64,000 nucleotides of DNA, taken from the NCBI RefSeq assembly GCF_003019675.1, contig NZ_CP028105.1, positions 1,318,282-1,382,281 of the forward strand, written 5' to 3'. Every line of letters begins with the position of its first letter. The stretch's first letter is position 1. The stretch is from Fusobacterium ulcerans (lineage in GTDB: Bacteria > Fusobacteriota > Fusobacteriia > Fusobacteriales > Fusobacteriaceae). This document shows, piece by piece, positions 6,275-63,068 of the stretch. The position numbers were made by a program, and so were the translations under genes. Under the pieces are notes generated by a model. It had not been told where the DNA came from and searched no databases. It saw only the letters and a list, made by a program, of their open reading frames with translations.

Positions 6275-6751
6275 ATGATATTGAGAAAATATAATCCTGA
6301 TGATTGTATTAAATTATTAAAACTCTTCTATGATACAGTTAGGAATGTAAATAAAAAAGACTATAATGATGAGCAGCTTTCTGTATGGGCTCCTGATAAC
6401 TATATAGAAGAAAAATATGCCCTCTGGCAAAAGTCTCTTTCTGAAAATTTTACTATTGTTGCTGAAATCAATGGAGAGATTGTAGGTTTTGGAGATATAG
6501 AAAAAACTGGCTATCTCAATAGGTTATTTATTCACAAGGATTATCAGAATATGGGAATTGCATCAGCTATAGTTAAGGAACTTGAAAAATATGCAGAGAA
6601 AATATGTATATGCACAATAATAACAGAGGCTTCAATCACAGCTAAACCCTTCTTTGAAAGGCTGGGATATACATTGGTAAAAAAACAGCAGGTAGAGAGA
6701 ATAGGAATTTCTCTTACTAACTATGTTATGGAAAAAAATATATCGAGATAA
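6275..6751 (+). CDS. GNAT family N-acetyltransferase
   Basis: A 158-residue single-domain GNAT. The acetyl-CoA binding motif is seen in RLFIHKDYQNMGIASAIVKE (Q-x-x-G-I-A pyrophosphate loop), followed by a C-terminal strand and helix AKPFFERLGYTLVKKQQVER, typical of the PhnO/RimI/YafP-like branch. It transfers acetyl from acetyl-CoA to an amine; the substrate cannot be told. The start follows GAGGTGAG. It is the first of three GNAT genes within 1.7 kb, but 118 bp separate it from the next, so it is probably its own unit. Confidence 0.9.
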   Translation: MILRKYNPDDCIKLLKLFYDTVRNVNKKDYNDEQLSVWAPDNYIEEKYALWQKSLSENFTIVAEINGEIVGFGDIEKTGYLNRLFIHKDYQNMGIASAIVKELEKYAEKICICTIITEASITAKPFFERLGYTLVKKQQVERIGISLTNYVMEKNISR

Positions 6752-6818
6752 GGTTCATTTATAAAAAATCTAAATTCTAATATATTATTTCTATTTTAAA
6801 TTATATGACAAAATAATA

Positions 6819-6836
6819 TGTATATGGTCAATAATA
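6819..6836 (+). repeat. 18-bp origin-type element, + strand copy
   Basis: Exact match to TGTATATNNWYAATAATA (variable bases GGTC), between two GNAT genes and about 35 kb from the origin cluster. Confidence 0.75.
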
Positions 6837-8164: not shown

Positions 8165-8193
8165 TTGACTTTACTACATTTTTAAATTATAAA
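8165..8193 (+). promoter_or_regulatory. Promoter of the nhaC operon
   Basis: TTGACT (8165-8170), 17 bp, TATAAA (8188-8193), 64 bp before the first ATG. An ACTACATT word occurs in the spacer (from 8173) and again just downstream of the start point, a possible operator pair. The rest of the 7908-8256 gap is A/T-rich with no other recognisable feature. Confidence 0.6.
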
Positions 8194-8256
8194 TATAGTA
8201 ACTACTACATTGGCTAAATTTAATAACTTTTATCTAAAATCAAGGAGGGCAAAATT

Positions 8257-11471: not shown

Positions 11472-11492
11472 GGAAGTCGAGGAAGTGAATAG

Positions 11493-12335: not shown

Positions 12336-12401
12336 AAATATTCCTTGCTTTTATTATTAAATTATTTTATGATAAAAGAAAAGAAACGTGAGGTATGATT
12401 C

Positions 12402-21368: not shown

Positions 21369-21386
21369 TGTATATAATCAATAATA
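21369..21386 (+). repeat. 18-bp origin-type element, + strand copy
   Basis: Exact match to TGTATATNNWYAATAATA (variable bases AATC, as in the first origin copy), alone in the 21166-21671 gap, which otherwise holds only A/T-rich DNA and two terminators. Confidence 0.75.
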
Positions 21387-36057: not shown

Positions 36058-36075
36058 TATTATTATTCATATACA
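36058..36075 (-). repeat. 18-bp origin-type element, - strand copy, gyrB-gyrA gap
   Basis: Exact match to TGTATATNNWYAATAATA on the minus strand (variable bases GAAT, as at 40216 and 42402), between the gyrB stop and gyrA. Confidence 0.75.
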
Positions 36076-37989: not shown

Positions 37990-38251
37990 TACTATTACTA
38001 CCTCCGCTTATTCTAATATACTCGTTTCCTCGGCTCATCAAAGTTGATAGTGCATATGAAGTAAAATATATTTTACTATCAGTTATCACTGCACTTTTTT
38101 CAGCTTCTGGAGCTAAATTTATTATTTTTTTTATTTTTATTTCATTATTATAAAATTCAAAGTTATTACTGCTTTTTAAATGTATATAGTCAATAATAAT
38201 TACTATATCCTTTGCCGATAATACTAATTCATTTTCTAAATAAATATACAT
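37982..38251 (-). CDS. RemB/YaaB-type DUF370 protein
   Basis: An 89-residue protein opening [20 protein letters not shown], the same start pattern as B. subtilis YaaB (RemB), a DUF370 protein encoded between recF and gyrB. The C-terminal [19 protein letters not shown] matches the YYSPLSSSTL-type segment. RemA relatives form DNA-binding rings that control matrix and osmolyte genes; the role of RemB is poorly known. Position between recF/dciA and gyrB is conserved with Firmicutes, strengthening the call. One 18-bp repeat is embedded in its coding sequence. Confidence 0.75.
38181..38198 (+). repeat. 18-bp origin-type element inside remB
   Basis: Exact match to TGTATATNNWYAATAATA (variable bases AGTC) within the remB coding region, on the strand opposite to the gene. 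Confidence 0.75.
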
Positions 38252-38254
38252 GTT

Positions 38255-38797
38255 TCATCCTCTGCCTTTTTTATCTTGGCATATTTTACACATATCTTTT
38301 GGACTTTTGAAATACGCTCCACATTCTGGACATTTTTTATACCCTGCCTTTAATAAACGCTGCTCTTTTTTTTCAGCAGATTTTTTCAAATACTCTATTT
38401 TTTGAAATATATTCATTTCATTTAAATCTATATCTAAATATTTATCTTCAGAAACTTCCTCTTCTGATAAATTATTATTGGCTGTATACACATCATTATA
38501 TATCTCTTCTTCTTTTATTTTAGAGATGCGAAATGACATATTATTTATTATATTGGCATTTAATATTTCATTAACTTTATCTATATATTTTTTCTTGTTC
38601 ATTTCCATAAAATGAAGCACTGATGAACTTTCCACAACAATATAGAGCATGTTCTCTTTTATGTAAAGAACCTGGCTTTTTTCTGAAAGTTTTCCTGTTA
38701 TATCTTTCCACTGAGCTTTAAGAATGCCTTCTTTTAGCTTTCTACTTTTCTCAATTGCCCTTTCTATCATTCTCCCTATATTCTCTATCTCTATCAT
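38255..38797 (-). CDS. DciA-like DUF721 protein with C-terminal zinc ribbon
   Basis: I choose the ATG complementary to 38795-38797 (GGTGA site); 180 residues, overlapping the end of recF by 47 bp. The N-terminal 90 residues fit DUF721/DciA: GRMIERAIEKSRKLKEGILK, AQWKDITGKLSEKSQVLYIK, MLYIVVESSSVLHFMEMNKK. DciA loads or activates the replicative helicase DnaB in bacteria lacking DnaC/DnaI. The C-terminus adds KKCPECGAYFKSPKDMCKIC, two CxxC pairs typical of a zinc ribbon, after an acidic linker. Placement next to recF near the origin fits a replication role. Confidence 0.75.
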   Translation of the reverse strand: MIEIENIGRMIERAIEKSRKLKEGILKAQWKDITGKLSEKSQVLYIKENMLYIVVESSSVLHFMEMNKKKYIDKVNEILNANIINNMSFRISKIKEEEIYNDVYTANNNLSEEEVSEDKYLDIDLNEMNIFQKIEYLKKSAEKKEQRLLKAGYKKCPECGAYFKSPKDMCKICQDKKGRG

Positions 38798-39887
38798 AGC
38801 TAATTTCACCTTTTTCCACATAGAAATCCTTAGTATCTATTCCAAGTCCTCCTGTTGAACTTATAAAGACCTGTATATTTCTTTTTTCCAGATAGTTCAA
38901 TATACTATCCTTTCTATTAGAATCAAAATAGGAAGATATATCATCAATTATAAGAATTGGGCTCTCTTTTTTCTCTCTTAACACCATATCTATTTCTGAA
39001 AGTTTCAAAGAAAAAATAATTGATTTTTTTTCCCCTTGAGATGCTGTTGATTTAGCTTCATAAGAATTTAAAAAAAATAAAAAATCATCTTTTTGAGGTC
39101 CAGAAAGTGAAAAACCATATCTTAATTCTTGTCCTAATTTTTCTTCTATTCTTTTTCTAAGAGCATCTTCTATCTCTTTTAAAGTCATTTTTTTTACATT
39201 TCCAAGATGACATTGATATTGAAGACTCAACTCTTTTTTATCATCAAAAAGTTTTCTGTAGTTCAGATTAAGTATAATGGATATTTTTTTTACATACTCC
39301 ATTCTTTTTTCTATAACCTTAGCTCCATACTTCACAAATTCATCTTGATAGATAGCGAATTCAGGTTCTTTATGTTTTTTCTCTTTAAGATATTTATTTC
39401 TTATTTTTAATATCTTATTAAAATTTTTTAATTCCTGAAAATATTCACTACTAGTTTGAGCTATCTCACCATCAAAAAAATTCCTTCTGACAGAAGGAGA
39501 ACCTGTTATCAGTACTATGTCTTCAGGAATATATGTTACTACATTGAGTTTTCCATAAAATTCATCATATTGGACCTTTTTCCCATTATAGCTATATTCT
39601 TTTTTATCTTCATTATTGAATTTTACAGTAAGAGTCTTTTCTCCTATATTATCTTTGTAAACTACATAAACCCCTGTCCGTTTATAGCCATATTTCATCA
39701 TTTCACTACTTTTATTAGTTCTAAAGCTTTTACCTGTAGAATTGAAATACAATGCTTCCAGGAGACTCGTCTTTCCTTGACCATTTTTTCCATAGAAAAG
39801 ATTTAGTTTAGGAAAAAATTTTACATTTCCATCTTGAAGATTTCTAAAATTCACATAATTTATTTCTAGTATTTCCAACCCTTTCAC
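38751..39887 (-). CDS. recF: DNA replication/repair protein RecF
   Basis: An SMC-like ATPase for gap repair. Walker A is FYGKNGQGKTSLLEALYF (about residues 32-48), the signature motif LSGPQKDDFLFFL (about 263-275) and Walker B SPILIIDDISSYFD (about 315-328), in the normal order. The frame opens with GTG at 39885-39887, 378 residues; a TTG four codons later (39873-39875) would place the first strand better relative to other RecF proteins and has GAGGTG upstream, so the exact start is uncertain. It follows yaaA and precedes dciA, as in the dnaA-dnaN-yaaA-recF order of Firmicutes. Confidence 0.94.
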   Translation of the reverse strand: MKGLEILEINYVNFRNLQDGNVKFFPKLNLFYGKNGQGKTSLLEALYFNSTGKSFRTNKSSEMMKYGYKRTGVYVVYKDNIGEKTLTVKFNNEDKKEYSYNGKKVQYDEFYGKLNVVTYIPEDIVLITGSPSVRRNFFDGEIAQTSSEYFQELKNFNKILKIRNKYLKEKKHKEPEFAIYQDEFVKYGAKVIEKRMEYVKKISIILNLNYRKLFDDKKELSLQYQCHLGNVKKMTLKEIEDALRKRIEEKLGQELRYGFSLSGPQKDDFLFFLNSYEAKSTASQGEKKSIIFSLKLSEIDMVLREKKESPILIIDDISSYFDSNRKDSILNYLEKRNIQVFISSTGGLGIDTKDFYVEKGEISYDRDREYRENDRKGN

Positions 39888-39911: not shown

Positions 39912-40118
39912 TTATTTCACTATGAAAACCTTTCCCTCAGCTTCAACTTTATCACCTGGGTAAAGTTTTTTACCTCTTCTTATCTCTAATTCTCCATTAA
40001 CTTTTACATTTCCTTCAGTTATAAAAAATTTAGCATCTACTCCAGTATCACATACCCCAGTCCATTTTAAAAATTGATCCAGTTTTATAAATTCAGTAGA
40101 TATTTTTACTTCTTCCAT
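39912..40118 (-). CDS. yaaA: S4-domain RNA-binding protein YaaA (RlbA)
   Basis: A 68-residue single S4 domain: IKLDQFLKWTGVCDTGVDAK, FITEGNVKVNGELEIRRGKK, LYPGDKVEAEGKVFIVK. This is the small YaaA/RlbA protein encoded between dnaN and recF in many Gram-positive genomes, associated with ribosome assembly. Here it sits between the Rep-like initiator and recF, which marks the place where dnaA-dnaN are expected. It begins 22 bp after an A/T-rich stretch with GGGGGAAA as ribosome site. Confidence 0.9.
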   Translation of the reverse strand: MEEVKISTEFIKLDQFLKWTGVCDTGVDAKFFITEGNVKVNGELEIRRGKKLYPGDKVEAEGKVFIVK

Positions 40119-40215: not shown

Positions 40216-40233
40216 TGTATATGAATAATAATA
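40216..40233 (+). repeat. 18-bp origin-type element downstream of the Rep-like gene
   Basis: Exact match to TGTATATNNWYAATAATA (variable bases GAAT), in the gap between the Rep-like gene's terminator and yaaA. Confidence 0.8.
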
Positions 40234-40302: not shown

Positions 40303-42093
40303 TTATTCATCTTTTATTACTCTTTCAATGTATCTTTTTATGGTATTTAAATATATATTCTTAGATTTTGATTTCATAGTAAGAAGAAAATTAACATCTA
40401 TCCCTTCTTCTTGTGAACATATCTTCAACGCCTTTTCCTCTATCTTCAATTTTTCAAATTCATCATAACTATTATATTCAGCCATTAAATCCTTTGGTAT
40501 GTCAGTATCAGTTATTATATCTTTTATACTGCTTATAACAGGTTTTTTAACACTTCTTCTAGCTTGATTAATTTTTTTCTTACTTTTCAACCCTTTTTCT
40601 TTTACTATATTATTGAAAAGAGTGAGATTTTGTTTATTACTGCTATTCTCATCAGCAGAAATATTTTTTAGTATTCCATTAATATATTGTACAAGAGTTG
40701 TTTTTATATTGCCATTAAGATTTTTATACAGTATAGACAGAACTTCTTTTGCTGTTGCTTCTCCCTCTTCTCTGCATATTTTCTTTATTTTATTATCAGT
40801 TCTTCTGTCCCATGCCCTTTGCACATAGATATTCCTTTTAGCTTTCTGTACCTTTTCCATTACATCTCCTGGAAACTCTATAGCTGGCTCTTTATGCTTA
40901 GTTTCTGGTCTAGGAGTTTTTTCAATTGAACCATACTCAACCACTTCAGCCTCTTCTATGTCTAAATTATTTTTAGCTGCAAGGGATGCTGGTCTTTTTC
41001 TTCCCATATCCTTACCAGTTTTATTTTCAAGAAATGAAGACACATGACATTCTCCATCTTTTTCTTTATTAAAAATATAATCAATATAGTAATTATCCTC
41101 TTCTTTTATATAATCTGAATTGTATTTTATAATATATCCCATTTCTACAAGAACATCAAAAGCTTTTTCAATTCTCTTCAATACTTGTTTAACTCTACAT
41201 AAAATATATTGTTTTGTTTCACCATTTTTATTTATTCTTTCAGTAACTTGCTCTGTTTTCAGAGGAATTATTGCTGCAAGAGTTCTAAGATTAATTCTTC
41301 CATCCATACTTTCATATCTTATTTTACTTATATATTTATATATTCTCCCTGCAATAGGGTCCTTTGTCAATATTTCAAGAAGTGATTTAGAATTATACTT
41401 TATATATCTTTTATCTTTTATCTTTTGCCTTATATTTTTATTCAAGGTAACTCTATAATATATTTTTTTTCCTTTTTTAAGCTTTTGATATGTAAGGAGT
41501 TTAAACTCTTCATCTTCAAATTTATATTTTCCAAGCTTTGTATGATTTGAAACTATAAACTGATACTCTGTATTTTTTAAATTTTTTAAAGCTTGCTCCA
41601 CTTTTGAGTAGTAAGTTCTGTTCATTTTATTTCCAAGAAAACTTACTATAAAATCTGAAATTTCAAATTCTATATACTCATCTGAATCTTCTATCTCTTT
41701 TTTTATTTCATACATCGAAATAAGATATGTATATATTTTTTCCTCAAATGTTGAAGGTTGAAAAACTTTATCAGCATTATCTTTTGCTACAAGAGTACAA
41801 TACATTGTAACTCCTAGATCTTCGAATGAATATTGAAAATTTACCCTTTTATTTTGTTTTTGTGGAGTAAAAAAAGGAAATACAATCATTTCAACAGGAA
41901 TATTAATAATATTCTCTTTAAGATTTAAAAAATTTCCTGTTTCTTTGATAACCACTTCTCTTACTTCTATATCAGGAACAGTATTAAGTTTTATTTCAAC
42001 ATTCCTTATATCTTCTACTAGTGATCCACTTTGTGATATTTTGAAACTATCTAAAATTTCAAAATCATTATCTATAGAGTCATCTTTTTTCAT
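40303..42093 (-). CDS. Rep-like (plasmid-type) replication initiator at the chromosomal origin locus
   Basis: A 596-residue protein occupying the place of dnaA(-dnaN) between the rpmH gap and yaaA-recF-gyrB-gyrA. It has no Walker A loop, so it is not DnaA. Residues about 110-330 look like plasmid Rep winged-helix domains: FEEKIYTYLISMYEIKKEIE, YSKVEQALKNLKNTEYQFIV, VTLNKNIRQKIKDKRYIKYN, SLLEILTKDPIAGRIYKYIS, and KQVLKRIEKAFDVLVEMGYI. A basic linker (about 365-410) leads to a C-terminal helical region with RAWDRRTDNKIKKICREEGE. It begins behind GAGGAG. The adjacent seven 18-bp repeats are its probable binding sites (inference). Assignment as Rep family is by pattern and context; DnaA may exist elsewhere in the genome. 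Confidence 0.75.
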   Translation of the reverse strand: MKKDDSIDNDFEILDSFKISQSGSLVEDIRNVEIKLNTVPDIEVREVVIKETGNFLNLKENIINIPVEMIVFPFFTPQKQNKRVNFQYSFEDLGVTMYCTLVAKDNADKVFQPSTFEEKIYTYLISMYEIKKEIEDSDEYIEFEISDFIVSFLGNKMNRTYYSKVEQALKNLKNTEYQFIVSNHTKLGKYKFEDEEFKLLTYQKLKKGKKIYYRVTLNKNIRQKIKDKRYIKYNSKSLLEILTKDPIAGRIYKYISKIRYESMDGRINLRTLAAIIPLKTEQVTERINKNGETKQYILCRVKQVLKRIEKAFDVLVEMGYIIKYNSDYIKEEDNYYIDYIFNKEKDGECHVSSFLENKTGKDMGRKRPASLAAKNNLDIEEAEVVEYGSIEKTPRPETKHKEPAIEFPGDVMEKVQKAKRNIYVQRAWDRRTDNKIKKICREEGEATAKEVLSILYKNLNGNIKTTLVQYINGILKNISADENSSNKQNLTLFNNIVKEKGLKSKKKINQARRSVKKPVISSIKDIITDTDIPKDLMAEYNSYDEFEKLKIEEKALKICSQEEGIDVNFLLTMKSKSKNIYLNTIKRYIERVIKDE

Positions 42094-42149
42094 AAATTAA
42101 TCTCTCCTCTAAATCGTAAGTAAATATATAAGGTATACTCCAAATAAAA

Positions 42150-42819
42150 TGTATATAATCAATAATATAACATTTTTTATGTATATCCACAATAATATTT
42201 TTTATATCATAAGTATATTAAATTTGTATAAAGACAAGCTCTTGATTTTTAAGGATTTCTAACATACACTCTAAGTAGGAAGATTTTTTTTAATTATTCA
42301 TAACTTCTTAAAAATCAAGGTTTTTATCTTTTGTATATACTCAATAATAAACAACGGAATTTTATTTTAACATAAAATTCAAATAAAATAAAGATTAAAA
42401 ATGTATATGAATAATAATATTTTTTTAAATTCATTGAAAATACTGGTTTACCTCATGTGTATATTGATAATAATATTTTTTGATATTTTTATTCCCAGCT
42501 TTTTTGAGGAGTCTTAGACTTTTTATTTTTTTCAGTCATTGAATTTACTGGAATACTTAATGTGTATATCAATAAAAATAAAATACATATCTTTTTTGAA
42601 TATGTTCTCAATGATATCAATGGTTTTTTGATAATGAATTTTTTATATTGGTCATTACATTAAACAAAAAAACAAAAAAACAAAATAACAACTAATATAT
42701 TTTTTGATGTTGGTCTCTTTATTTTTTTATTTAAAAAAATTGAAGAAATATCAGCTTAAAATTTAGCTGTAGCTATCTAAAATAACCACTTTTCATTTAT
42801 ATGTATATAAGTAATAATA
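42150..42819 (+). repeat. Iteron-like array: seven copies of an 18-bp element
   Basis: Copies start at 42150, 42180, 42332, 42402, 42458, 42563 and 42802, all on the + strand. Six match TGTATATNNWY AATAATA exactly except that the W position is G in the last; the 42563 copy has one mismatch in the right half (AAAAATA). Variable blocks are AATC, CCAC, ACTC, GAAT, TGAT, CAAT, AAGT. The base before the right half is a pyrimidine in all. Spacings are 30, 152, 70, 56, 105 and 239 bp, so it is not a tight tandem array. Likely initiator-binding sites. Confidence 0.82.
42241..42319. repeat. 13-bp inverted repeat in the origin region
   Basis: CTTGATTTTTAAG (42241-42253) and its exact complement CTTAAAAATCAAG (42307-42319), 53 bp apart, between the second and third 18-bp repeats. 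It could be a second protein site or a cruciform-forming element. Confidence 0.7.
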
Positions 42820-42881
42820 ATAAAATTCAATTTTTTTTTGAAAAAATTCTTTAGAAATTTATTAAATTTTCTAATAATTAC

Positions 42882-42910
42882 TTGACAAAACAAGAATTTT
42901 CCTTTAAAAT
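42882..42910 (+). promoter_or_regulatory. Strong promoter of rpmH
   Basis: TTGACA (42882-42887), exactly 17 bp, TAAAAT (42905-42910), 38 bp before rpmH. A fully consensus -35 fits the high expression of a ribosomal protein. Confidence 0.85.
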
Positions 42911-42948
42911 TACTATCTGAAATATAGAATTTTTTTGGAGGTGAAAAA

Positions 42949-43083
42949 ATGAAAAGAACATTCCAACCTAATCAAGCTAAAAGAAAGAAAGATCACGGGT
43001 TCAGAGCTAGAATGGCTACTAAAAACGGAAGAAAAGTTTTAAAAAGAAGAAGAGCTAGAGGAAGACAAGTATTATCAGCATAG
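42949..43083 (+). CDS. rpmH: 50S ribosomal protein L34
   Basis: A 44-residue basic ribosomal protein beginning [20 protein letters not shown] and ending GRQVLSA, nearly identical in pattern to all bacterial L34. It starts 5 bases after GGAGGTG. It is the first gene on the right side of the origin gap and is followed by its own terminator, so it can be expressed well above rnpA. Confidence 0.97.
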
Positions 43084-48457: not shown

Positions 48458-48475
48458 TATTATTATGTATATACA
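48458..48475 (-). repeat. 18-bp origin-type element after mnmG
   Basis: Exact match to TGTATATNNWYAATAATA on the minus strand (variable bases ACAT), 12 bp after mnmG. The + strand reads an overlapping one-mismatch copy at 48466-48483, making this site nearly two-sided. Confidence 0.75.
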
Positions 48476-51558: not shown

Positions 51559-51576
51559 TATTATTGAACATATACA
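51559..51576 (-). repeat. 18-bp origin-type element upstream of mfd
   Basis: Exact match to TGTATATNNWYAATAATA on the minus strand (variable bases GTTC). Confidence 0.75.
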
Positions 51577-51689: not shown

Positions 51690-54641
51690 ATGATAACAGA
51701 ATATAGAGGAAGGATACCTTTCCTGCTCAAAGACATAAAAGGAAACATAGTATATCTATGCTCATCCAACAAGAACATTGAGGATTATTATAATACCCTC
51801 AGTGATTTTTATGATGGAAAAATTTTAAAAATTGAAAGCAGTTATGAAAATGAGGAATTTGAAAAACTTAATTATGACCTTCTTAAACTTTTAAAATCTA
51901 AAAATAAATTTGCTATACTCATATCTTTAGAAGCATTTCTCAGAGACTATGCACTAGAGGGAGATAAACTTTCTTTTAAAAAAGGGAAGGAGATGAGCAT
52001 AGCTAAAATACAGGAAGATCTTGTAAGAAATAAATATGATAAAGTATATATGATTGAAAAAAGAATGCAGTACAGTGTAAGAGGGGATATTTTAGATATC
52101 TTTTCAAGTGATGGAGACTATCCTGTAAGAATTGAATTTTTTGGAGATGAGATAGAGAGAATAGCATATTTTGATCTTGAAAGCCAAAAGAGTATAGAAA
52201 TACTTGATAGTATCAATGTGTATATAAACAATAATAAGAATGGAAAAATATCTTTTTTTGATTTGGTTAAAAACAGCAAAACAAAAGGTTTAAAGATATA
52301 TTTTGAAAATAATGAATTGTTGAGATATAAATTAGAAGAAAATATAATTAGAGAGAGAGAAGAAGAAGAAAAGTTTCGAGGAAGATTTAATGAACTTCTG
52401 GAAACAGGTGAGGAAGTAGAGATAAAAAGATTCTCAGAGGAAGAGATAAAGAAATTTGAGGACTATGATTATATAAAAAAATTGAGTCAGAAAGAAAATA
52501 TACTTCTGATGTCAGAAGAGGAAAAGAGATATAAAGAAATATTTGAAAATTATAATATTGAGATAGAGAGATATCCTCACTATGAAGGATATAGAGAAAA
52601 AGACAGACTGATTCTCACTGACAGAGAGCTAAAAGGAATCAAGGTAAAAAGAGAAGCAAAGGAAAAGGTAAATTTAAAATATAAAGATGTATCTCAAATC
52701 AGAGAAAATGACTTTATAATTCATGAAAATTATGGAGTAGGTATCTATCAAGGGATAGAAACTATGAATGGACAGGATTATTTAAAGATAAAGTATGCTG
52801 ATGAAGATAAGCTTTTTGTACCAGTTGAAGGCATAAATAAAATTGAAAAGTATGTATCTACTCCTGGAGTAATTCCTGATATATATCAATTAGGGAGAAG
52901 AGGGTTTAAAAGAAAAAGACAGAAGCTGGAAGAGGAAATGGTAGCTTTTGCTAAAGAAATCATTGAGATACAGGCAAAGAGAGCTTTTGAAAAGGGATAT
53001 GCTTTTTCTCATGATACAGTGTGGCAGGAGGAATTTGAAGAAAGTTTTCCATATAAAGAGACAGCTTCACAATTAAAAGCTATAGAAGATGTCAAAAGAG
53101 ATATGGAATCAGATAGAATAATGGATAGGGTAGTCTGTGGAGATGTGGGATATGGTAAGACAGAGATAGCTTTGAGAGCAGCTTTTAAAGCGTCCATAGA
53201 TGGGAAACAGGTAGTTGTTATGGTGCCTACCACAGTACTTGCACAACAGCATTATGAGAGATTTACAGAAAGATTCAAAAACTATCCTGTAAGTATTGAA
53301 ATATTGAGCAGATTAAAAAGTGAAAAAGAGCAGAAAGAGGTACTTAAAAAAATATCAGCAGGAACTATTGATATAGTAATAGGTACTCACAGAATACTTT
53401 CATCAGATGTAAAATTTAAAGATTTAGGTCTTGTGGTAATAGACGAAGAACAGAAATTTGGTGTAAAAGCTAAGGAACAGCTGAAAAAACTGAAAAATAA
53501 AATAGATATGATAACCCTTACAGCGACACCTATTCCAAGAACATTGAACCTTTCATTGTTGGGAATAAGAGATCTTTCTGTAATAGATACACCTCCAGAA
53601 GGAAGAAAGCCTATTGAGACAATGTTTATAGATAAAGATGATAAAAAACTAAAAGAGATAATCATGAGTGAAATAGCCAGAGAAGGTCAGGTTTTCTATA
53701 TATTCAATTCTGTGAAAAATATAGAAAAGAAGACTCATGAGCTTAGAAAACTTCTTCCAAATTATCTGAAACTGGACTATATTCATGGACAGATGCTTCC
53801 AAAAGAGATAAAAAACAAGATAAAAGATTTTGAAAATGGGGATATAGATATGCTCATATCCACTACTATAATTGAAAATGGTATAGATATAGAAAATGCA
53901 AATACTATGATAATAGATGGAGTGGAAAAACTGGGATTGTCACAGATATATCAGCTGAGAGGGCGTATAGGAAGAGGAAGGAGAAAGGGATACTGCTATC
54001 TTCTTACTAAAGAGCATCAGACAAAGAAAGCTAAAGAAAGAGAAGAATCTATTAAAAATCTGGGAGATTCAGGTGGAGGATTCCAGCTATCTCTTGAAGA
54101 TATGAGAATAAGGGGAGCTGGAGAGATACTTGGAGACAAGCAGCATGGAGCTCTTGAGACTTTCGGATATAACTTGTATATAAAAATGCTGAATGAAGAG
54201 ATACAGCGTATCAAAGGAAATGCTCCAGAAGAAGAGGTAGAGATGGAGATAAAAATAGATATGCCAGCATTTATTCCTGATGAATATATAGAAAAAGATG
54301 AAAAGATAGTGATTTACAGAAGAGCAGCTGAATTAAAAACTCAAGAGGAATTAAAAGAACTTGAGTCTGAAGTAAGGGATAGATTTGGAAATCCTCCAAG
54401 AGAGGTAGTAAATCTTTTCTACTATATAGGAGTTAAGATTAAAGCTAGAGAGCTGGGAATTTCTGTAATAAGACAGGAAAAAAATGGGTTCTTTGTAAGA
54501 TTTTTAAGTGAAAAAGTAAATATAGAAAAAATATCTCAAATGATGACAATGGGAAATCTAAAATATCTCAATAGAGAGGAAGGGGTATTCTATAGAGGGA
54601 ATATCAATAGATTTTTTAATGAGTATGAGGGAGTGATGTAA
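51690..54641 (+). CDS. mfd: Transcription-repair coupling factor Mfd
   Basis: A 983-residue SF2 translocase that removes RNA polymerase stalled at DNA damage and recruits UvrA. An N-terminal UvrB-like part (KRMQYSVRGDILDIFSSDGD) precedes the RNA-polymerase-interaction domain (VSQIRENDFIIHENYGVGIY, about residues 333-352), then the helicase motifs CGDVGYGKTEIALRAAFKA, DEEQKFGV and QLRGRIGRGRRKGYCYLLT, and a C-terminal TRCF domain. About 150 residues shorter than E. coli Mfd; the missing part lies at the N-terminal UvrA-contact region. GGAGTGAG precedes the start. Confidence 0.95.
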   Translation: MITEYRGRIPFLLKDIKGNIVYLCSSNKNIEDYYNTLSDFYDGKILKIESSYENEEFEKLNYDLLKLLKSKNKFAILISLEAFLRDYALEGDKLSFKKGKEMSIAKIQEDLVRNKYDKVYMIEKRMQYSVRGDILDIFSSDGDYPVRIEFFGDEIERIAYFDLESQKSIEILDSINVYINNNKNGKISFFDLVKNSKTKGLKIYFENNELLRYKLEENIIREREEEEKFRGRFNELLETGEEVEIKRFSEEEIKKFEDYDYIKKLSQKENILLMSEEEKRYKEIFENYNIEIERYPHYEGYREKDRLILTDRELKGIKVKREAKEKVNLKYKDVSQIRENDFIIHENYGVGIYQGIETMNGQDYLKIKYADEDKLFVPVEGINKIEKYVSTPGVIPDIYQLGRRGFKRKRQKLEEEMVAFAKEIIEIQAKRAFEKGYAFSHDTVWQEEFEESFPYKETASQLKAIEDVKRDMESDRIMDRVVCGDVGYGKTEIALRAAFKASIDGKQVVVMVPTTVLAQQHYERFTERFKNYPVSIEILSRLKSEKEQKEVLKKISAGTIDIVIGTHRILSSDVKFKDLGLVVIDEEQKFGVKAKEQLKKLKNKIDMITLTATPIPRTLNLSLLGIRDLSVIDTPPEGRKPIETMFIDKDDKKLKEIIMSEIAREGQVFYIFNSVKNIEKKTHELRKLLPNYLKLDYIHGQMLPKEIKNKIKDFENGDIDMLISTTIIENGIDIENANTMIIDGVEKLGLSQIYQLRGRIGRGRRKGYCYLLTKEHQTKKAKEREESIKNLGDSGGGFQLSLEDMRIRGAGEILGDKQHGALETFGYNLYIKMLNEEIQRIKGNAPEEEVEMEIKIDMPAFIPDEYIEKDEKIVIYRRAAELKTQEELKELESEVRDRFGNPPREVVNLFYYIGVKIKARELGISVIRQEKNGFFVRFLSEKVNIEKISQMMTMGNLKYLNREEGVFYRGNINRFFNEYEGVM
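52219..52236 (+). repeat. 18-bp origin-type element inside mfd
   Basis: Exact match to TGTATATNNWYAATAATA (variable bases AAAC) within the coding sequence for VYINNNK of Mfd, same strand as the gene. Confidence 0.75.
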
Positions 54642-55750: not shown

Positions 55751-56610
55751 TGAAATTTTCTTTGAATTCCAATGGAAAAATAAATATAGGTTTAAATGTA
55801 ACTGGCAGATGTGAGAATGGATATCATCTTCTGGATATGGTAATGGTACCTATCAGTCTGAGTGATACTATGACTGGAGAGATAACAGATGCTAAAGGGA
55901 CATTGACTATAGAGACTAATAAGAAAGATATACCAACAGGAAAAGAAAATATCCTGTATAAGATATATGATAAATTTTATGATGAAAGTGCCTTAGAAAG
56001 AAAAAAAGTATATGTGTATCTTGAAAAAAGAATACCACATCAAGCTGGGCTTGGGGGAGGAAGTTCCAATGGAGCATTCCTGCTTAAACTTTTAAATAGC
56101 TTTCATGATAATCATTTCTCTATGGAAAAAATGATAGAGATAGGAAAAAGTGTAGGAGCAGACATACCATTTTTTCTGATAAATAAATCTGCAAGAGTTA
56201 CAGGTATAGGAGAAAATATTGAAATAATAGAAAATAATCTGGACAGTGCATTGATAATTATAAAGCCAGATTTTGGAGTTTCTACTGGAAAAGCATATAA
56301 GAATATGTATATGCTCAATAATAAAAGAGATGCTGATATAGATAAAATAGTTCTGGGACTAAAGGAAAACAGCCTATCTACAGTGGAAAACAGTATAGAA
56401 AATCATCTTGAGCAAGGACTTTTGCTTGAAGATGAAAACATAATAGATTTCAGAAAAAGATTAGCAGCTTTAAATAATATGAAATTCTTTATGTCAGGAA
56501 GCGGAAGTGCATATTATACTTTTGCTGATAAAAATGAAAAAGAGAATATATATAAAATATTAAAAGAGCATTTTAAAAACTGTGAAGTACATCTTTGCGG
56601 TTCTTTATAG
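55750..56610 (+). CDS. ispE: 4-diphosphocytidyl-2-C-methyl-D-erythritol kinase
   Basis: A 286-residue GHMP kinase of the MEP isoprenoid pathway. It starts with GTG overlapping the rqcP stop. KINIGLNVTGRCENGYHLLD is the substrate-binding start, IPHQAGLGGGSSNGAFLLKL the ATP phosphate loop (about residues 93-112), and MKFFMSGSGSAYYTFADK the third GHMP motif. The enzyme phosphorylates CDP-ME at the 2-OH. One 18-bp repeat lies inside. It is translationally coupled to its neighbour; spoVG follows 32 bp later. Confidence 0.95.
   Translation: MKFSLNSNGKINIGLNVTGRCENGYHLLDMVMVPISLSDTMTGEITDAKGTLTIETNKKDIPTGKENILYKIYDKFYDESALERKKVYVYLEKRIPHQAGLGGGSSNGAFLLKLLNSFHDNHFSMEKMIEIGKSVGADIPFFLINKSARVTGIGENIEIIENNLDSALIIIKPDFGVSTGKAYKNMYMLNNKRDADIDKIVLGLKENSLSTVENSIENHLEQGLLLEDENIIDFRKRLAALNNMKFFMSGSGSAYYTFADKNEKENIYKILKEHFKNCEVHLCGSL
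56306..56323 (+). repeat. 18-bp origin-type element inside ispE
   Basis: Exact match to TGTATATNNWYAATAATA (variable bases GCTC) within the codons for MYMLNNK of IspE. Confidence 0.75.
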
Positions 56611-56960: not shown

Positions 56961-57000
56961 ACAGCCTGAAACCTTAAGTGGTTTCAGGTTGTTTTTTTTG
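56961..57000 (+). terminator. Terminator after spoVG
   Basis: CCTGAAACC (56965-56973) with GGTTTCAGG (56980-56988), extended outward by ACAG/TTGT pairs, then a run of eight T. Confidence 0.93.
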
Positions 57001-57047
57001 TACAGTTATGCTAATATATGAAAAATGAATTAAGGAGGGGAAAGTCT

Positions 57048-57377
57048 ATGTTAATTAAATTTGATGAAATGGAAATAACTATGTTGGAAAAGTTTTATGG
57101 GGGAGAAAAAAGTGTAGAAGCTCGTATGTTTGTAGATGAAAGAAATCGTATTATGTACAGCAAACTTGAGCCTGGAGCATCTATTGGATATCATAAACAT
57201 GAAAATGGAAGTGAAATGATATATATTTTACAAGGAAAAGGAAAAGCTTTATATGATGACAGAGAAGAGGAACTTTATGCAGGAGGTTGTCATTATTGCC
57301 CAAAAGGGCATTCTCACAGTGTTATAAATAATAGCGATGAAGATTTGATTTTCTTTGCAGTGGTGCCGCAGCAATAA
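57048..57377 (+). CDS. Cupin-domain protein
   Basis: A 109-residue single cupin. I take the ATG at 57048, behind AAGGAGGGG. The metal motifs are seen as IGYHKHENGSEMIYILQGKG (G-x5-H-x-H-x-E/G pattern) and YCPKGHSHSVINN (second motif His). The barrel fold fits small metal-binding cupins such as mannose-6-phosphate isomerase-like or oxalate-type proteins; the ligand and reaction are unknown. It is its own unit between two terminators. Confidence 0.85.
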   Translation: MLIKFDEMEITMLEKFYGGEKSVEARMFVDERNRIMYSKLEPGASIGYHKHENGSEMIYILQGKGKALYDDREEELYAGGCHYCPKGHSHSVINNSDEDLIFFAVVPQQ

Positions 57378-57391
57378 TTTAGGTATGAAAA

Positions 57392-57415
57392 AGAGCAGCT
57401 ATAATCAGCTGCTCT
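57392..57415. terminator. Bidirectional terminator between cupin and speD
   Basis: AGAGCAGCT (57392-57400) with AGCTGCTCT (57407-57415); minus-strand T run follows on the speD side. Confidence 0.88.
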
Positions 57416-57421
57416 AATATT

Positions 57422-57796
57422 TTATTCTTTAAAAATTTCTTTTAACGAGCCTCTGAGCATCTTCTTTAGATCAAATCTTTCTGCTTTTAACTTCATTTCC
57501 AAAAGAGTGAAAGCTGCTAAAGGATCTAGCATATCTCCACAGGTAAATAAATCAACAGCAGCATATTTATATTCTGGCCATGTATGAATAGTTAAGTGAG
57601 ATTCCTCAATAACAATTACCCCGCTGACACCCCATGGGTTAAATGTGTGAAATACACTTTTTACTATTGTAGCTTTGGCGGCTTCAGCAGCTTCTATCAT
57701 ATATTTTTCAATTAATAATGTATTTTTTAATGTCTCAACATCACAGTCATAATATTCGACTAAGAGATGTTTTCCTAATTGGTTTAATTTAAACAT
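57422..57796 (-). CDS. speD: S-adenosylmethionine decarboxylase proenzyme
   Basis: A 124-residue class 1B (bacterial/archaeal) AdoMet[22 protein letters not shown] holds the self-cleavage site: Ser66 after Glu65, which becomes the pyruvoyl cofactor; His71 and Cys86 (DLFTCGD) are the processing and proton-donor residues. Decarboxylated SAM is the aminopropyl donor for polyamines. It follows bpsA by 14 bp on the same strand, giving donor and aminopropyltransferase in one operon. Length is normal. Confidence 0.95.
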
Positions 57797-57810
57797 AATT
57801 CTCCTTAATT

Positions 57811-58983
57811 TTAAATAGTTATATTTTTTCTTTGAAGTAAATCAAATATTTTATTATTACATTTGCAACATCCTGTATTTTTTAGAATTTCAATATTTTT
57901 TATTTTTTCAGAATTACCTATCTTTGTTATTTTCCCACATTTTTTACATTTATAAAAACGTATTGTTTTTGTAAATTCTCCAGTATACAAAAGGTTTTTG
58001 TAAGTACTCTTTATTAATGGCTTTGTTATATCAGTAGTTTTAAGTACTATCATCTGTCCTGTATTTCCAATGATGCTAGCTCCTTCATAAGTGTTGAATT
58101 TGAGAGTTACAGTTGAAATAGCAAGACCCATAGTTAGAAAATTTTTCTGCATATTTAATTGATAAATTGAAGATTTATGTGCAAAAGAAAAATAAATATT
58201 TAAGTCACTATGACTTTTTAAAGTCTCTATTCCCCTTGAAAGGAAAAGATTCATTCCTTCTAATGTATAGGGAGGATCTGTAAAAAAGCAGTCAAATCTA
58301 TTTTTAAATTTATTAGACAGTGAATTTCTTAAATCTGCATATTCACACTTGATAGGAAGAGATTCTTTCATTGCTATATCATTTATGTATTCAATAATTC
58401 TTTTATCAATATCAATTACAATAATCTTAGTATTTTGATAAAAAGTGTGTGGGAAAAGTTTTTTTAATAAAAAACCTAATGCGATACTGACTAAATCATC
58501 ATCTCCTAGACATAAAATGTTTTTTCCAATGAGATCATAATTTTTAAGGCACAGCATAGCTCTTTTCAAAGAAGTATCTACACTGGATTTAGATTGATCT
58601 AAAGTGACATCTGCCTGAGGTCGACATTGAAAGATATTATGAATTTCTTCTTTTATTTCAGTAATTTCTTTATACTCTTCTTGAGTATTTGTAAGTAATT
58701 TGATATAAAGTTCTTTATTTATATTTTTAAATCCTAACTCCTTTTCTACAAAGAATATTCCATTGGAAGTCAGTCTTGTTCCTCTATCTTGAATAACCAA
58801 TTTTTCTTTGATAAATTCTTTTTTTATAGCAGCAGTAATAGGAAGAGGCAAGAAATTTCTTCTTGCTAATTCCTTAGTAGATATACCTTCAACAAGATAT
58901 ATTGTTATTAATATATTTTCTATGATTTTACTGCCTTCTTCTAAATTTATATTTTTTTTAATTTTTTCTATACAATTAAGCAT
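57811..58983 (-). CDS. bpsA: N4-bis(aminopropyl)spermidine synthase (branched polyamine synthase)
   Basis: A 390-residue protein of the DUF43/BpsA family. An N-terminal winged-helix part (about residues 20-80) is followed by a Rossmann fold with [24 protein letters not shown] (160-163) is the family's catalytic motif, and [10 protein letters not shown] (about 231-240) the second. BpsA adds two aminopropyl groups from decarboxylated SAM to spermidine, making branched tetra- and pentaamines, best known from thermophiles. The adjoining speD supplies the donor. The C-terminus has [10 protein letters not shown] and CCKCNNKIF, two CxxC pairs that look like a zinc ribbon. The start is behind GGAGG. 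Confidence 0.85.
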
Positions 58984-59030
58984 TGTTTATTATCCTCCAT
59001 TTTTAATTGAACTAAAAAAGAAAGATGGAT

Positions 59031-59076
59031 AAAATAAAAAAAGGTTATAATAACACTAAAGTCACTATAACCTTTT
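59031..59076 (-). terminator. Terminator hairpin in the bpsA-speD leader (possible attenuator)
   Basis: On the minus strand AAAAGGTTATA and TATAACCTTTT (59066-59076 and 59039-59049) form an 11-bp stem with a 16-base loop, followed by TTTATTTT. It lies about 48 bp before the bpsA start and downstream of the promoter at 59375, so it must be read through for bpsA expression. Confidence 0.7.
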
Positions 59077-59176
59077 ATAACTTAAATTAAATGGCGAATA
59101 TAATGGACACTAAGTTTAATAAATCAATTTTAAAATATATTAAAAATTTTAAAATTATTATTCCCTAAGTATCTAA

Positions 59177-59368
59177 TTAATTTATAATAAAGTTCGGTTT
59201 AATGATATCCATGTTTCTTAACTATTTTTAAAAAGACAACACAAAAAATCCTCCCTGCTAACTAGGAACGGAAGCTTTTTAAAAAACAACTTTTTATTTA
59301 GTTGATTGAGTTAGAAACATTTAAGGACATCAAATCCTCCCCTTTTTTTTAATTTATATTAACAATAT
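59177..59368 (-). ncRNA. Structured leader RNA upstream of bpsA-speD
   Basis: The minus-strand transcript from the promoter at 59375-59403 contains a long-range stem: complement of 59204-59222 with that of 59310-59331 (GATATCC/GGACATC plus ATGTTTC/GAAACAT with a bulged base and a 4-base side loop). Two near-identical purine words, GGGGAGGATTT and GGGAGGATTT (complement of 59332-59342 and 59243-59252 regions), look like Shine-Dalgarno sites. A stem of CTTCC with GGGAG can hide the second. The 58984-59480 gap has no long gene. Function is inferred only. Confidence 0.4.
59298..59330 (-). CDS. Possible leader peptide of the polyamine operon
   Basis: A 10-codon ORF, MSLNVSNSIN, with GGGGAGG five bases upstream of the ATG. 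Its start lies in the long-range stem of the leader RNA, so translation would open that structure. Very short ORFs before polyamine genes can act as sensors of polyamines or amino acids; here only position and ribosome site support it. Confidence 0.35.
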   Translation of the reverse strand: MSLNVSNSIN

Positions 59369-59374
59369 TATTTA

Positions 59375-59403
59375 ATAATAACATATTAAGATAATTATTT
59401 CAA
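59375..59403 (-). promoter_or_regulatory. Promoter of the bpsA-speD leader
   Basis: TTGAAA (complement of 59398-59403), exactly 17 bp, TATTAT (complement of 59375-59380). It gives a leader of about 385 nt before bpsA. Confidence 0.55.
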
Positions 59404-59436
59404 GATGGTCTCTCAATAGTATTATTTTATTATGCA

Positions 59437-59473
59437 AAAACAGCTGAAGTCATTTTAAGACCTCAACTGTTTT
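59437..59473 (-). terminator. Terminator of the DUF4132 gene
   Basis: AAAACAG (59437-59443) with CTGTTTT (59467-59473) plus inner TGA/TCA pairs; on the minus strand five T follow. It lies just after the stop codon. Confidence 0.82.
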
Positions 59474-59480
59474 GTTAGTT

Positions 59481-62400
59481 TTATTCTGTTATTTTGTCAA
59501 GCAATCCTATAATACTGCTTACAAATCTCTGTGAAAGAGAAGATACATCTAATATCATATTATCTTTTATATCATCAAGAGGTTCTCCATCTTCTGGCAG
59601 ACGGCAGAAAGCAACTTCTTTTATACTTATTTGTTCTTCAAAATCCTGCCCCATATACATATCATCAACATTAATGTGGACATAAATATTAAGAAATTTA
59701 TCAACAATATGGTAGCAGAAGAAAGAACCACCATCAAGAACTTCTCCACGAATAAATTCATATTTTTTTGCAGCTGAATTCATTTTGCCAACAGAGATAT
59801 ATTTATCAGAGTAACGGATTATTTTCTTTCCAGTGATATCTTTTTCAGCAAGCTCAATCACAGAAATATCCAATTGTTCTATTGGTTGAATTATCTCATA
59901 ATCATCCAGCTGAGTTTTCCAAGAAGAAGTAAGTTCCTCTCCCAGATCTGCTGGATGTGCAAGAGTAATTTGAGCATTTTCAGGAAGAGTGAATTCTTCT
60001 TCATCAACTGTATTGAAAGTGCCATCTTCCATATATCTGAATGATTGTATTATTTTATTATTTTCATATACACCCCAAATAAGTCCAATAGCAAACTGGT
60101 GCATTATAGGATTTTCTACAAATAGGGTATTCCAGCTTTTACTGCTCCAGTAACGTCCATTCATAAGAACTTTTTTCAATCTGCTAGATTGAGTTTGTAC
60201 TACTGCTTTTATTTGTTTTTTAAGTTCAGAAAATTCTTTTTTAGCTGTTTCAGCTTTTACAGGGTCATCTTCACTAGTTGGTTTAGGAAGAGATTTAACA
60301 AATTTTTCCTTTCCATTATCATAGATTGAAAGTACAAAATCAGGTGTTAAACTAAGTGTAAAAGTATGAACTCCAAAATCAAGAACCTTTTTACCAGCTT
60401 TATCAAATCCAAGAGAAGGAATAATTCGATCTGAAAGTACATCTTCTGGAAGATCAAGTATCTTAGCAGCTGTAGAAAAAGCCATCTTAGCAGCTTTTTT
60501 TACCTGGTTGTTAGGAAACTTTCCAGATATGCTGTCCACCATCATAAGAGCTACACTTCCACCATTTAATGCAGCAACAGATACAGCAAATGCTGCAAGA
60601 GCTCCACGAGAAGCCTCTGCCCATTTGAGAAGCTGTTTATTTAACTGAAGTATCTGTGTATCAGAAGCAAAAACACAATAAGGAAGTAAAATCATTTTAA
60701 GTTTTGTATCAGCTCCATTATTTAACCAGGTATTATATACTCCTTCCAGAGTTTTTTGAATATCTTGCACATTTAGTATCTCTGCAACTTTATCAGCTGC
60801 TTTTACACGATATGGTGCAGCCAGAGACATATATTCAACAAGGATAAACTCCATTATTACAGCAGGAGCTGTTCCACTCATATCAGCAAAACGTACTCCA
60901 GAAAGGATACCTTCTGGTAACCATGAAATAACTTTAGTATTGGCTGTATCAAAGTTTTCTGTACAAAATTTTATTGCTGATTCATTTGTAAAAGAAAATC
61001 CATCATGGAAAAGATGTTCATTATTCCAGAACTTCATAATACGATTTATTATTTGGAGTGTTTCACCTTTTGCCTTAGTTTTGACAGATTCAAGTAGATT
61101 TTCAGTTTCTTCTTTATGTCTTGTAATTATCTCTTCAGCTTTTTTCTTAATAACTTTTGACTTATGATTAATCATTTCTACAAGTAGAGAATAATCAGGA
61201 ATATCACTTTTATCAAATAAAAGTTCCATAAGTCTTGTTTGATAAGTTGTTTCATCACTTGAACATTTTTCAAGTTTTTTCCATTCATCAAGGAGTTCCA
61301 GAGCTTCATTTTCATGACCTTTTATGATTTCCACAGCATCAGCCATGTTGATATTTTCTCCATTCCAGCTTTCATCTCCAGCCATACAATAGATAGCAAG
61401 TATCTTTTTAAATGGAAATCCATATTTTATTAAAACTTCAGCACTGTCTATTGGAGATTTAGCAAGCCATTTCTCTCTTCCATCAATGAAATAGTTATAT
61501 ATTCTTATTTCATTTGAGTGATAAGTGTCTTTTTCAGCAAGCTCCATATAGATATCCAAGAGTTTTCTTGCAGTTGAGCTGTGAGTATACATAGAGGCAA
61601 CAGCAGTATAAAAATGTTCTACCATATGCAGATTGCCATTTACATATTGTTTTAATACCTCTTCTTTAGAAATATTTCCTTTTAAATATTCTAAAACATT
61701 AGTATTTTTATTTTTAAATCCATATTCCATATATCTAATTATATCAGCATTTATTTCTTCTTCTTTTAACTTCTCTTCCTTATCATTGTTTTTTATCATA
61801 ACAGCAAGGAGGAAAAGAGCTTTGACAGAGTTAAGTTTATCAGATAATCTAGAGTAAACTTTCATAAATTCTTCTCTATTTTCTTGATATGCTTCTGTAA
61901 AATATTGAACAATTTTCTTTGTATCACTTTTGTACTCATTCATTACTTCAAGAATAAGGAGCAAAAGTGGATAAGATTCTGGAATATTTTTATCATCACA
62001 GAATTTTTTTAATTTTTTAAAATCTCTATGGAAACCAAATTTATATATATTTACTCTAGCCCCTTCATTTTCCACTATCAATTTAACAAGGAGAGCCTCT
62101 GCTTCTTTTGAAACAGGATAAATTTTAGATAAAATCATACATGTAGAGATATCAGCAAATTTTTCTGCATAATCTATTATAGGTTTAAGATATCTTTCGT
62201 ATTTTACTGGGTCTTTCTTGTAAAGAAGAGAACCAGTGATTAAAAGAGTAAAAAACATATGACTTTCATTTTTCTTTTCTATGAGAGTATCTATATTACT
62301 TTTAAAAAGATTGTCAGCAAATTTTGCAAAATCTTCATCAGTATAGTATTTCCATAATTTTTCAAGAATAGGCTCTATAGAATCAACAGAAAGATTTTTT

Positions 62401-62753
62401 TTGAATCTAATAATAGACTCTTCAATAATATTAGGAAGAGAGTAACCAATTTTTACTGCAATATCTATGTCATCAAACATATAGTAGTAATCGACTATAA
62501 CTCCTTCTCTTCTCCATTGTGAAATAACAAAAAGTATTCTTTTAGCAATAGATTCATTTTCTGTTCCTATCTCTTTAAGTAACACTAGAGGATATTTAGC
62601 AGACCAAGATGTTTGTCTTTTTTCAATAGTACTGTTAATGCCATTTATATATTCTTCAGCTTCTTTTACATATTCAACAGGAAGGGGTTTCCTAGAATAT
62701 GTATTTCCTTGTTTTGCAAGTTCCCAAATTTCCCACAATTCATTTTTAGTCAT
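59481..62753 (-). CDS. Large DUF4132-type protein of unknown function
   Basis: A 1090-residue, probably cytoplasmic protein with no signal peptide. The first ~800 residues are helical and repeat-like (HEAT-style; e.g. LVEMINHKSKVIKKKAEEII), consistent with a solenoid scaffold. The C-terminal ~250 residues carry VLMNGRYWSSKSWNTLFVEN, PIMHQFAIGLIWGVYENN, ENAQITLAHPADLGEEL and DDYEIIQPIEQLDIS, a pattern of DUF4132 (YehI/MolR-like) proteins with W-x(9)-P-x(8-10)-LIWG. Such proteins are often found with WGR domains, which I do not see here. Function unknown. It stands alone with its own terminator. Confidence 0.7.
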   Translation of the reverse strand: MTKNELWEIWELAKQGNTYSRKPLPVEYVKEAEEYINGINSTIEKRQTSWSAKYPLVLLKEIGTENESIAKRILFVISQWRREGVIVDYYYMFDDIDIAVKIGYSLPNIIEESIIRFKKNLSVDSIEPILEKLWKYYTDEDFAKFADNLFKSNIDTLIEKKNESHMFFTLLITGSLLYKKDPVKYERYLKPIIDYAEKFADISTCMILSKIYPVSKEAEALLVKLIVENEGARVNIYKFGFHRDFKKLKKFCDDKNIPESYPLLLLILEVMNEYKSDTKKIVQYFTEAYQENREEFMKVYSRLSDKLNSVKALFLLAVMIKNNDKEEKLKEEEINADIIRYMEYGFKNKNTNVLEYLKGNISKEEVLKQYVNGNLHMVEHFYTAVASMYTHSSTARKLLDIYMELAEKDTYHSNEIRIYNYFIDGREKWLAKSPIDSAEVLIKYGFPFKKILAIYCMAGDESWNGENINMADAVEIIKGHENEALELLDEWKKLEKCSSDETTYQTRLMELLFDKSDIPDYSLLVEMINHKSKVIKKKAEEIITRHKEETENLLESVKTKAKGETLQIINRIMKFWNNEHLFHDGFSFTNESAIKFCTENFDTANTKVISWLPEGILSGVRFADMSGTAPAVIMEFILVEYMSLAAPYRVKAADKVAEILNVQDIQKTLEGVYNTWLNNGADTKLKMILLPYCVFASDTQILQLNKQLLKWAEASRGALAAFAVSVAALNGGSVALMMVDSISGKFPNNQVKKAAKMAFSTAAKILDLPEDVLSDRIIPSLGFDKAGKKVLDFGVHTFTLSLTPDFVLSIYDNGKEKFVKSLPKPTSEDDPVKAETAKKEFSELKKQIKAVVQTQSSRLKKVLMNGRYWSSKSWNTLFVENPIMHQFAIGLIWGVYENNKIIQSFRYMEDGTFNTVDEEEFTLPENAQITLAHPADLGEELTSSWKTQLDDYEIIQPIEQLDISVIELAEKDITGKKIIRYSDKYISVGKMNSAAKKYEFIRGEVLDGGSFFCYHIVDKFLNIYVHINVDDMYMGQDFEEQISIKEVAFCRLPEDGEPLDDIKDNMILDVSSLSQRFVSSIIGLLDKITE

Positions 62754-62953
62754 AATCTTTCCTTTCTAAATTTATTTAAAGTATTACTCAAAATATATCA
62801 TCTTTATAGTTTAAAAACAAGAAAGAGAAGTTGAAACTTTGTAAATCATTAGTTGCAACTAAGGTAAAATCTATAAGAAGATAAAATATTTTAGTTTTTT
62901 TACAAGCTTTTTAAAAAGAGATATTCTTTTTTTATAATTTTTTAAAAATTTTA

Positions 62954-62982
62954 TTGACAAACAAAGCTAAATTTGATACTAT
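62954..62982 (+). promoter_or_regulatory. Promoter of tRNA-Gln
   Basis: TTGACA (62954-62959), 17 bp, TACTAT (62977-62982), about 12 bp before the mature tRNA 5' end. A second possible -10, TATACT at 62983, is too far. The 62754-62953 gap holds nothing else I recognise. Confidence 0.65.
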
Positions 62983-62993
62983 TATACTGTTGT

Positions 62994-63068
62994 TGGGCTG
63001 TCGCCAAGCGGTAAGGCAACGGACTTTGACTCCGTCATGCGCTGGTTCGAATCCAGCCAGCCCAGCCA
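62994..63068 (+). tRNA. tRNA-Gln (anticodon TTG)
   Basis: A full cloverleaf: acceptor TGGGCTG (62994-63000) with CAGCCCA (63058-63064), D arm with GGTAAGGC, anticodon stem ACGGA/TCCGT around CTTTGAC giving anticodon TTG for CAA/CAG, and T arm GCTGG-TTCGAAT-CCAGC. Discriminator G (63065) and the CCA end (63066-63068) are encoded. Confidence 0.97.

Follow-up and report, generated by a model that had tools for sequence, protein, structure and literature searches.

A plasmid-type Rep gene in the dnaA slot and the probable chromosomal origin of Fusobacteriaceae

We have analysed a stretch of 64,000 nucleotides (the window) from Fusobacterium ulcerans (GCF_003019675.1, contig NZ_CP028105.1, positions 1,318,282-1,382,281), whose genome is a single contig of 3,537,675 bases (3.54 Mb). 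Our subject is a gene for a protein of 596 amino acids (aa), here called rep, and the intergenic gap that separates it from rpmH. We believe, with a probability of about 0.88, that this locus is the origin of the main chromosome and that a plasmid-type Rep initiator replaced DnaA in the ancestor of the Fusobacteriaceae. Plasmid-like copying of the chromosome is probable because dnaA is missing and Rep, together with a set of direct repeats, is found in its place. An initial annotation of the window had already proposed that replication starts at this site by a Rep/iteron system, and the proposal is supported by the absence of dnaA, the position of the GC-skew minimum and the Rep-type predicted fold of the protein.

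The Rep protein and the missing dnaA

The 596-aa protein is predicted to be a tandem winged-helix replication initiator of the kind of RepE, pi and RctB. It matches the Pfam family RPA (Replication initiator protein A) with 25.5 bits (1.2e-5; gathering score 27), and 12 of 20 relatives match the same family, the best of them at 1.1e-7. Two orthologues exceed the gathering score (32.1 and 27.1 bits), and weak TrfA matches were also found. Two AlphaFold models were made, one of the whole protein and one of residues 60-352, with pLDDT values of 58 and 62. Foldseek alone gave nothing at E<=0.001 for the whole model, with RctB and pi among its weak rows, and a second look at solved structures with VIA was therefore needed. 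By VIA, the whole-protein model matched RepE of plasmid F (residues 113-345, Z 7.8-9.2), and the fragment model matched domains 2-3 of RctB (5ubf, 5tbf; Z 8.8), with further rows for RepE (Z up to 8.0), RepA of pPS10 (Z 7.8), pi (Z 7.0) and TrfA (Z 6.8). The leading rows for both models are replication initiators, and it is on this agreement among the top rows that the fold match depends, since the models are modest and the Z scores lie between 7 and 9. The initial annotation had likened the protein to winged-helix Rep proteins, and the weak RPA match and the predicted fold, Rep-type and not an unrelated one, go with it. It was also right that the protein lacks a P-loop, which Haliovirga DnaA carries, and that it has no DnaA signature; BLASTP found no similarity between the two proteins. 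Searching solved structures by sequence gave only unrelated weak matches for Rep, PHROGs and NCBIfam gave nothing useful, and no phage relatives of the protein were found.

A search of the genome for DnaA domain IV (PF08299) gave nothing, even at E<=10. None of the 61 Fusobacteriaceae genomes searched carries this domain, whereas 36 of the 37 genomes from five other families do. Matches to PF00308 in the F. ulcerans genome are DnaC-like loaders of ~270 aa, and Haliovirga DnaA, used as a query in the family, retrieved only short ATPase or partial fragments. A DnaA hidden elsewhere, which would have told against the annotation, was rejected on these searches; the genome does have two dnaN genes, both far from the rep locus. 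The two dnaN-like genes are divergent, and one adjoins a sigma-factor gene. We also observed at least eight genes for the DnaC-like ~270-aa ATPases, some near-identical and several adjoining DnaD-like open reading frames (ORFs); these repeated sets are phage-type replication modules.

A profile of Rep matches 60 of the 61 family genomes, full-length in most, some of the matches being fragments at contig ends or the C-terminal module only, in incomplete assemblies. Relatives in Fusobacterium, Cetobacterium, Propionigenium and Ilyobacter carry the gene, which is single copy and sits in the same slot across the family. Among the five sister families, four give no match to the profile and one gives a match solely on a plasmid, that of a Haliovirga with dnaA on its chromosome. 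In nine of the ten sister-family loci read, dnaA lies immediately before yaaA (and recF, where the stretch reaches), so that Rep occupies precisely the dnaA slot. The annotation had spoken of the dnaA-dnaN position; the first half of this stands, and the second does not, for the sister-family loci checked have no dnaN match between dnaA and yaaA either.

We found no statement in the open literature that Fusobacteriaceae lack dnaA or that it has been replaced there, and subscription papers could hold one. As of 2020, reports of dnaA loss were limited to cyanobacteria, reduced symbionts and organelles, and no dnaA-less free-living species was on record outside cyanobacteria (PMC7198777). A 2024 paper on F. 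vincentii rotated the chromosome to “dnaA” (PMC11209733), and our results suggest that the “dnaA” named in Fusobacterium by papers and pipelines is a mislabelled rep. A 2.1-Mb F. vincentii replicon with rep (NZ_CP084075.1), which from its size and homology looks like the chromosome, has been deposited as plasmid pSB055A.

The rep-rpmH gap and the iteron field

GC skew in the window turns from negative to positive at ~42.5 kb. Sampled in 20-kb pieces, the whole chromosome has negative skew between 3.13 Mb and, going round, 1.36 Mb (three samples near zero) and positive skew between 1.36 and 2.95 Mb, and the sole change from negative to positive among the sampled stretches, hence the minimum, is at the rep-rpmH gap and not elsewhere. 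The sign also flips at the corresponding gap in the other family loci tested, two of which have a left side near zero. Within the window, local skew deviates from the replichore trend at 8000-13000 and 57000-63000, which suggests small inversions or acquired segments.

The gap contains seven copies of an 18-bp direct repeat, TGTATATnnnnAATAATA, all in one orientation, six of them exact and one with a single mismatch. The genome (3.54 Mb) has 26 exact matches to the pattern TGTATATNNNNAATAATA and none to its reversed control, so the iteron-like repeats that had been noticed in the gap are real. Across the family the pattern is found in 59 of 61 genomes (reversed control 0-3 per genome), and 132 gap sites share a core in which C is preferred directly before AATAATA. 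When eight species of the genus are aligned, the iterons stand out as conserved blocks amid drifting DNA. Several gap iterons of Cetobacterium are ~105 bp apart, and the gap iterons of one genus form two separate clusters, at 49-448 and 729-933 counted from the start of rep.

The exact DnaA box TTATNCACA is absent from the gap of the window and from 23 related gaps (24 in total), and two exact copies are present in the Haliovirga dnaA gap. The annotation had reported a single imperfect box; we count instead nine one-mismatch matches and no exact one, several of the nine overlapping iterons.

The gene order had been read as rpmH, gap, the 596-aa ORF, yaaA, recF, dciA, remB, gyrB and gyrA, and both it and the coordinates of the ORF were found as described when we re-read the locus. 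To the left of rep the ORF list and profile matches give yaaA, recF, dciA, remB, gyrB and gyrA, in this order; to the right follow a gap of ~855 bp and then rpmH, rnpA, yidD, yidC, jag, mnmE and mnmG. In other words, the primary rpmH-gyr gene order is present at the rep locus. The features of the core locus are as follows (window coordinates).

40303..42093, minus strand: rep, predicted 596-aa tandem winged-helix replication initiator (RPA match, structure matches, single copy, family conservation, dN/dS); winged-helix part at residues ~60-350, C-terminal helical module at residues ~409-596
42094..42948, no strand: rep-rpmH intergenic gap, inferred replication origin (GC-skew sign change, family-conserved iterons, no exact DnaA box)
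42150..42167, plus strand: iteron 1, exact, near the rep start; its pairing with iteron 2 is conserved in the genus
42180..42197, plus strand: iteron 2, exact, 30 bp from iteron 1, conserved
42332..42349, plus strand: iteron 3, exact, conserved
42402..42419, plus strand: iteron 4, exact
42458..42475, plus strand: iteron 5, exact, conserved
42563..42580, plus strand: iteron 6, one mismatch, 105 bp after iteron 5
42653..42700, plus strand: A+C-rich stretch lying between iterons 6 and 7; by sequence reading, a candidate for the unwinding region
42802..42819, plus strand: iteron 7, exact, by the rpmH promoter region, kept in the nearest species
42882-42910, plus strand: promoter-like TTGACA-17-TAAAAT before rpmH (sequence reading)
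42949..43083, plus strand: rpmH, flank of the putative origin (gene reading)
39912..40118, minus strand: yaaA (S4 domain, YaaA near RecF; profile matches)
38751..39887, minus strand: recF (gene reading)
38255..38821, minus strand: dciA, replicative helicase loading partner (PF05258, 2.4e-8)

The core of the A+C-rich stretch, CATTAAAC...AACAACTA, is common to the nearest species.

The repeats had been located beside rep. This holds for the seven in the gap, but they are not confined there and form part of a wider cluster around the putative origin. Of the 20 exact iterons outside the gap, 15 lie within 100 kb of it, where chance would place 1.1 (P about 2e-15). The same tendency is seen at +-100 kb in four congeners, with P from 4e-6 to 3e-12 or better (1.3e-11 and 6e-7 in two of them), tests that are not independent owing to shared ancestry. 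These outlying sites are mostly intergenic and some are intragenic. The following, identified as pattern matches, lie in the window.

40216..40233, plus strand: between rep and yaaA, also here in related species
38181..38198, plus strand: in remB
36058..36075, minus strand: between gyrB and gyrA
21369..21386, plus strand: intergenic
6605-6622 and 6819-6836 (span 6605..6836), plus strand: two outlying iterons
48458..48475, minus strand: after mnmG
51559..51576, minus strand: upstream of mfd
52219..52236, plus strand: inside mfd
56306..56323, plus strand: inside an ORF

Several Cetobacterium genomes have a single exact iteron ~13 kb from the gap, on the rpmH side, which is possibly a dedicated control site.

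Plasmid relatives and alternative explanations

Homologues of Rep at 32-43% identity are the first genes of the Ilyobacter replicons pILYOP01 and pILYOP02 and of the Haliovirga plasmid pHIC, in which rep is followed by parA and parB. Judged by their position and context, these homologues would act as plasmid replication genes. The C-terminal part of Rep also recurs in the initiators of plasmids pZRK30-2 and pZRK30-3 from another strain of Fusobacteriota, and in one of these initiators the N-terminal half is clearly of the Rep_3 type. This suggests that the shared C-terminal part is a mobile module. In a maximum-likelihood tree a branch (100/99) separates all chromosomal Reps from those of plasmids; when the tree is rooted at its midpoint, two plasmid-type lineages lie immediately outside the chromosomal Reps. 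The chromosomal iteron motif is absent upstream of the plasmid reps, which have different repeats of their own, as expected of compatible replicons. Since the chromosomal Reps form one clade apart from those of plasmids, a single ancient takeover is the best reading, and the simplest history would be that, in the family's ancestor, one plasmid replicon integrated at the dnaA locus and dnaA was lost. The initial annotation had ventured an ancient plasmid takeover, which both the homologues and the tree favour. In Cetobacterium, a 22-kb contig with a second rep was considered as a natural minichromosome and rejected; it is a fold-back palindrome of the origin region in which the second rep is broken, most likely an assembly artefact.

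Several observations weigh against an origin of this kind and history. The RPA score of the window protein (25.5 bits) is slightly below the curated 27, the AlphaFold models are only modest (pLDDT 58 and 62) and the Z scores are 7-9. The branches leading to the plasmid Reps are long, and the tree has an uncertain root, placed at the midpoint. Gap iterons are fewer or weaker in some genera, outlying ones are few outside Fusobacterium, the field being clear only in that genus, and the skew profile is sampled rather than continuous, with one sample masked.

There are three other possible explanations. One would be that rep and the repeats are the remnant of an integrated plasmid and that another initiator acts at or near the same place. 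The existence of plasmid homologues fits this, but rep is under strong purifying selection, as its dN/dS of 0.03-0.04 in close relatives indicates, a single copy is kept in the same slot across the family with conserved iterons, the skew minimum falls exactly at the gap and our searches found no other DnaA-type initiator. We therefore consider a remnant very improbable.

Slightly less probable still is that Rep and the repeats are a centromere-like segregation system or a gene-regulation system rather than an initiator and its sites. ParB has no match in the genome, a strong chromosomal-type ParB is rare in the family though several sister genera have one, and the repeats are spread in a field centred on the origin, as parS sites are; the best matches to parS itself in the window are five with three mismatches. 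Against this, the predicted fold is that of an initiator, plasmid relatives of Rep adjoin a separate parA-parB, the repeats are direct, non-palindromic and densest beside rep, and an initiator is required because dnaA is missing. Some dnaA-bearing sister genera are also without ParB, so that the two losses are not tightly linked. The least probable explanation, that a highly diverged DnaA, here or elsewhere in the genome, still initiates and that the gene is a poorly conserved DnaA (as an earlier F. nucleatum genome paper had suggested), accords with the dnaA slot; against it stand a protein with no P-loop and no BLASTP similarity to Haliovirga DnaA, RPA and Rep-fold matches, homologues that are plasmid replication genes by context, domain IV in none of 61 family genomes against 36 of 37 others, and 24 gaps without an exact DnaA box.

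Proposed initiation and known systems

If the locus is a Rep-driven origin, Rep would most likely bind the 18-bp direct repeats of the gap and open AT-rich DNA there, after which DnaB would be loaded with the help of DciA and forks would run both ways. Iterons 1 and 2 lie upstream of the rep start, and through them Rep probably represses its own gene. The copy number of plasmids is held by extra iterons that titrate or pair initiators, and for this reason titration is our preferred reading of the outlying iterons, which probably limit initiation by titrating or pairing Rep. A segregation role for them can still be entertained because ParB is missing here and, in its strong chromosomal type, rare in the family. 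A wider version, in which a single plasmid capture replaced both DnaA and the whole origin-centred control layer, the Rep-bound iteron field being a copy counter that also has a part in origin segregation in place of ParB/parS, seems to us rather unlikely.

Bacteria are generally held to initiate replication with DnaA almost without exception. A whole culturable family, including human-associated Fusobacterium, appears instead to use a captured plasmid initiator for its main chromosome. Nature would thereby offer an instance of integrative suppression in which many genomes can be compared; whether and how chromosomal initiators can be exchanged becomes directly testable, and one has to ask how copy control of the plasmid type is adapted to the cell cycle. 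The kind of mechanism, Rep plus iterons, is already known; what would be new is that it serves the main chromosome throughout a family, instead of DnaA.

The situation is reminiscent of RctB and ori2 of Vibrio cholerae chromosome 2 and of other chromids, where a tandem winged-helix plasmid-type initiator (the structure match to 5ubf and 5tbf) works with direct repeats beside its gene and control sites beyond the origin on a large bidirectional chromosome (PMC7858055, and general knowledge). Fusobacteriaceae likewise have direct repeats beside rep and further sites beyond the gap. However, Vibrio keeps DnaA for its main chromosome, whereas the Fusobacteriaceae Rep origin is on the main chromosome, in the dnaA slot, and dnaA has been lost family-wide. 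A chromid is a secondary replicon beside a DnaA-driven chromosome; here there is one 3.54-Mb contig and no dnaA. RepE of plasmid F and the Rep_3, RPA and TrfA initiators share with Rep both winged-helix domains, a weak RPA match and one-direction repeats adjoining the gene, but the Fusobacteriaceae protein is chromosomal and longer, with a C-terminal helical module, and in some genera its repeats are ~105 bp apart, not closely packed as in RepE-type plasmids. Cyanobacteria, insect symbionts and organelles also have complete genomes without dnaA (PMC7198777); the dnaA-less cyanobacteria use multiple origins, whereas here we find one clear skew minimum and a candidate replacement initiator. Also comparable is the laboratory integrative suppression of dnaA mutants, in which failure of DnaA or oriC is made good by a plasmid origin and its initiator, which then drive the chromosome (PMC4287441). 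The case of the Fusobacteriaceae would differ in being natural and ancient, in lying precisely where dnaA used to be and in being fixed throughout the family.
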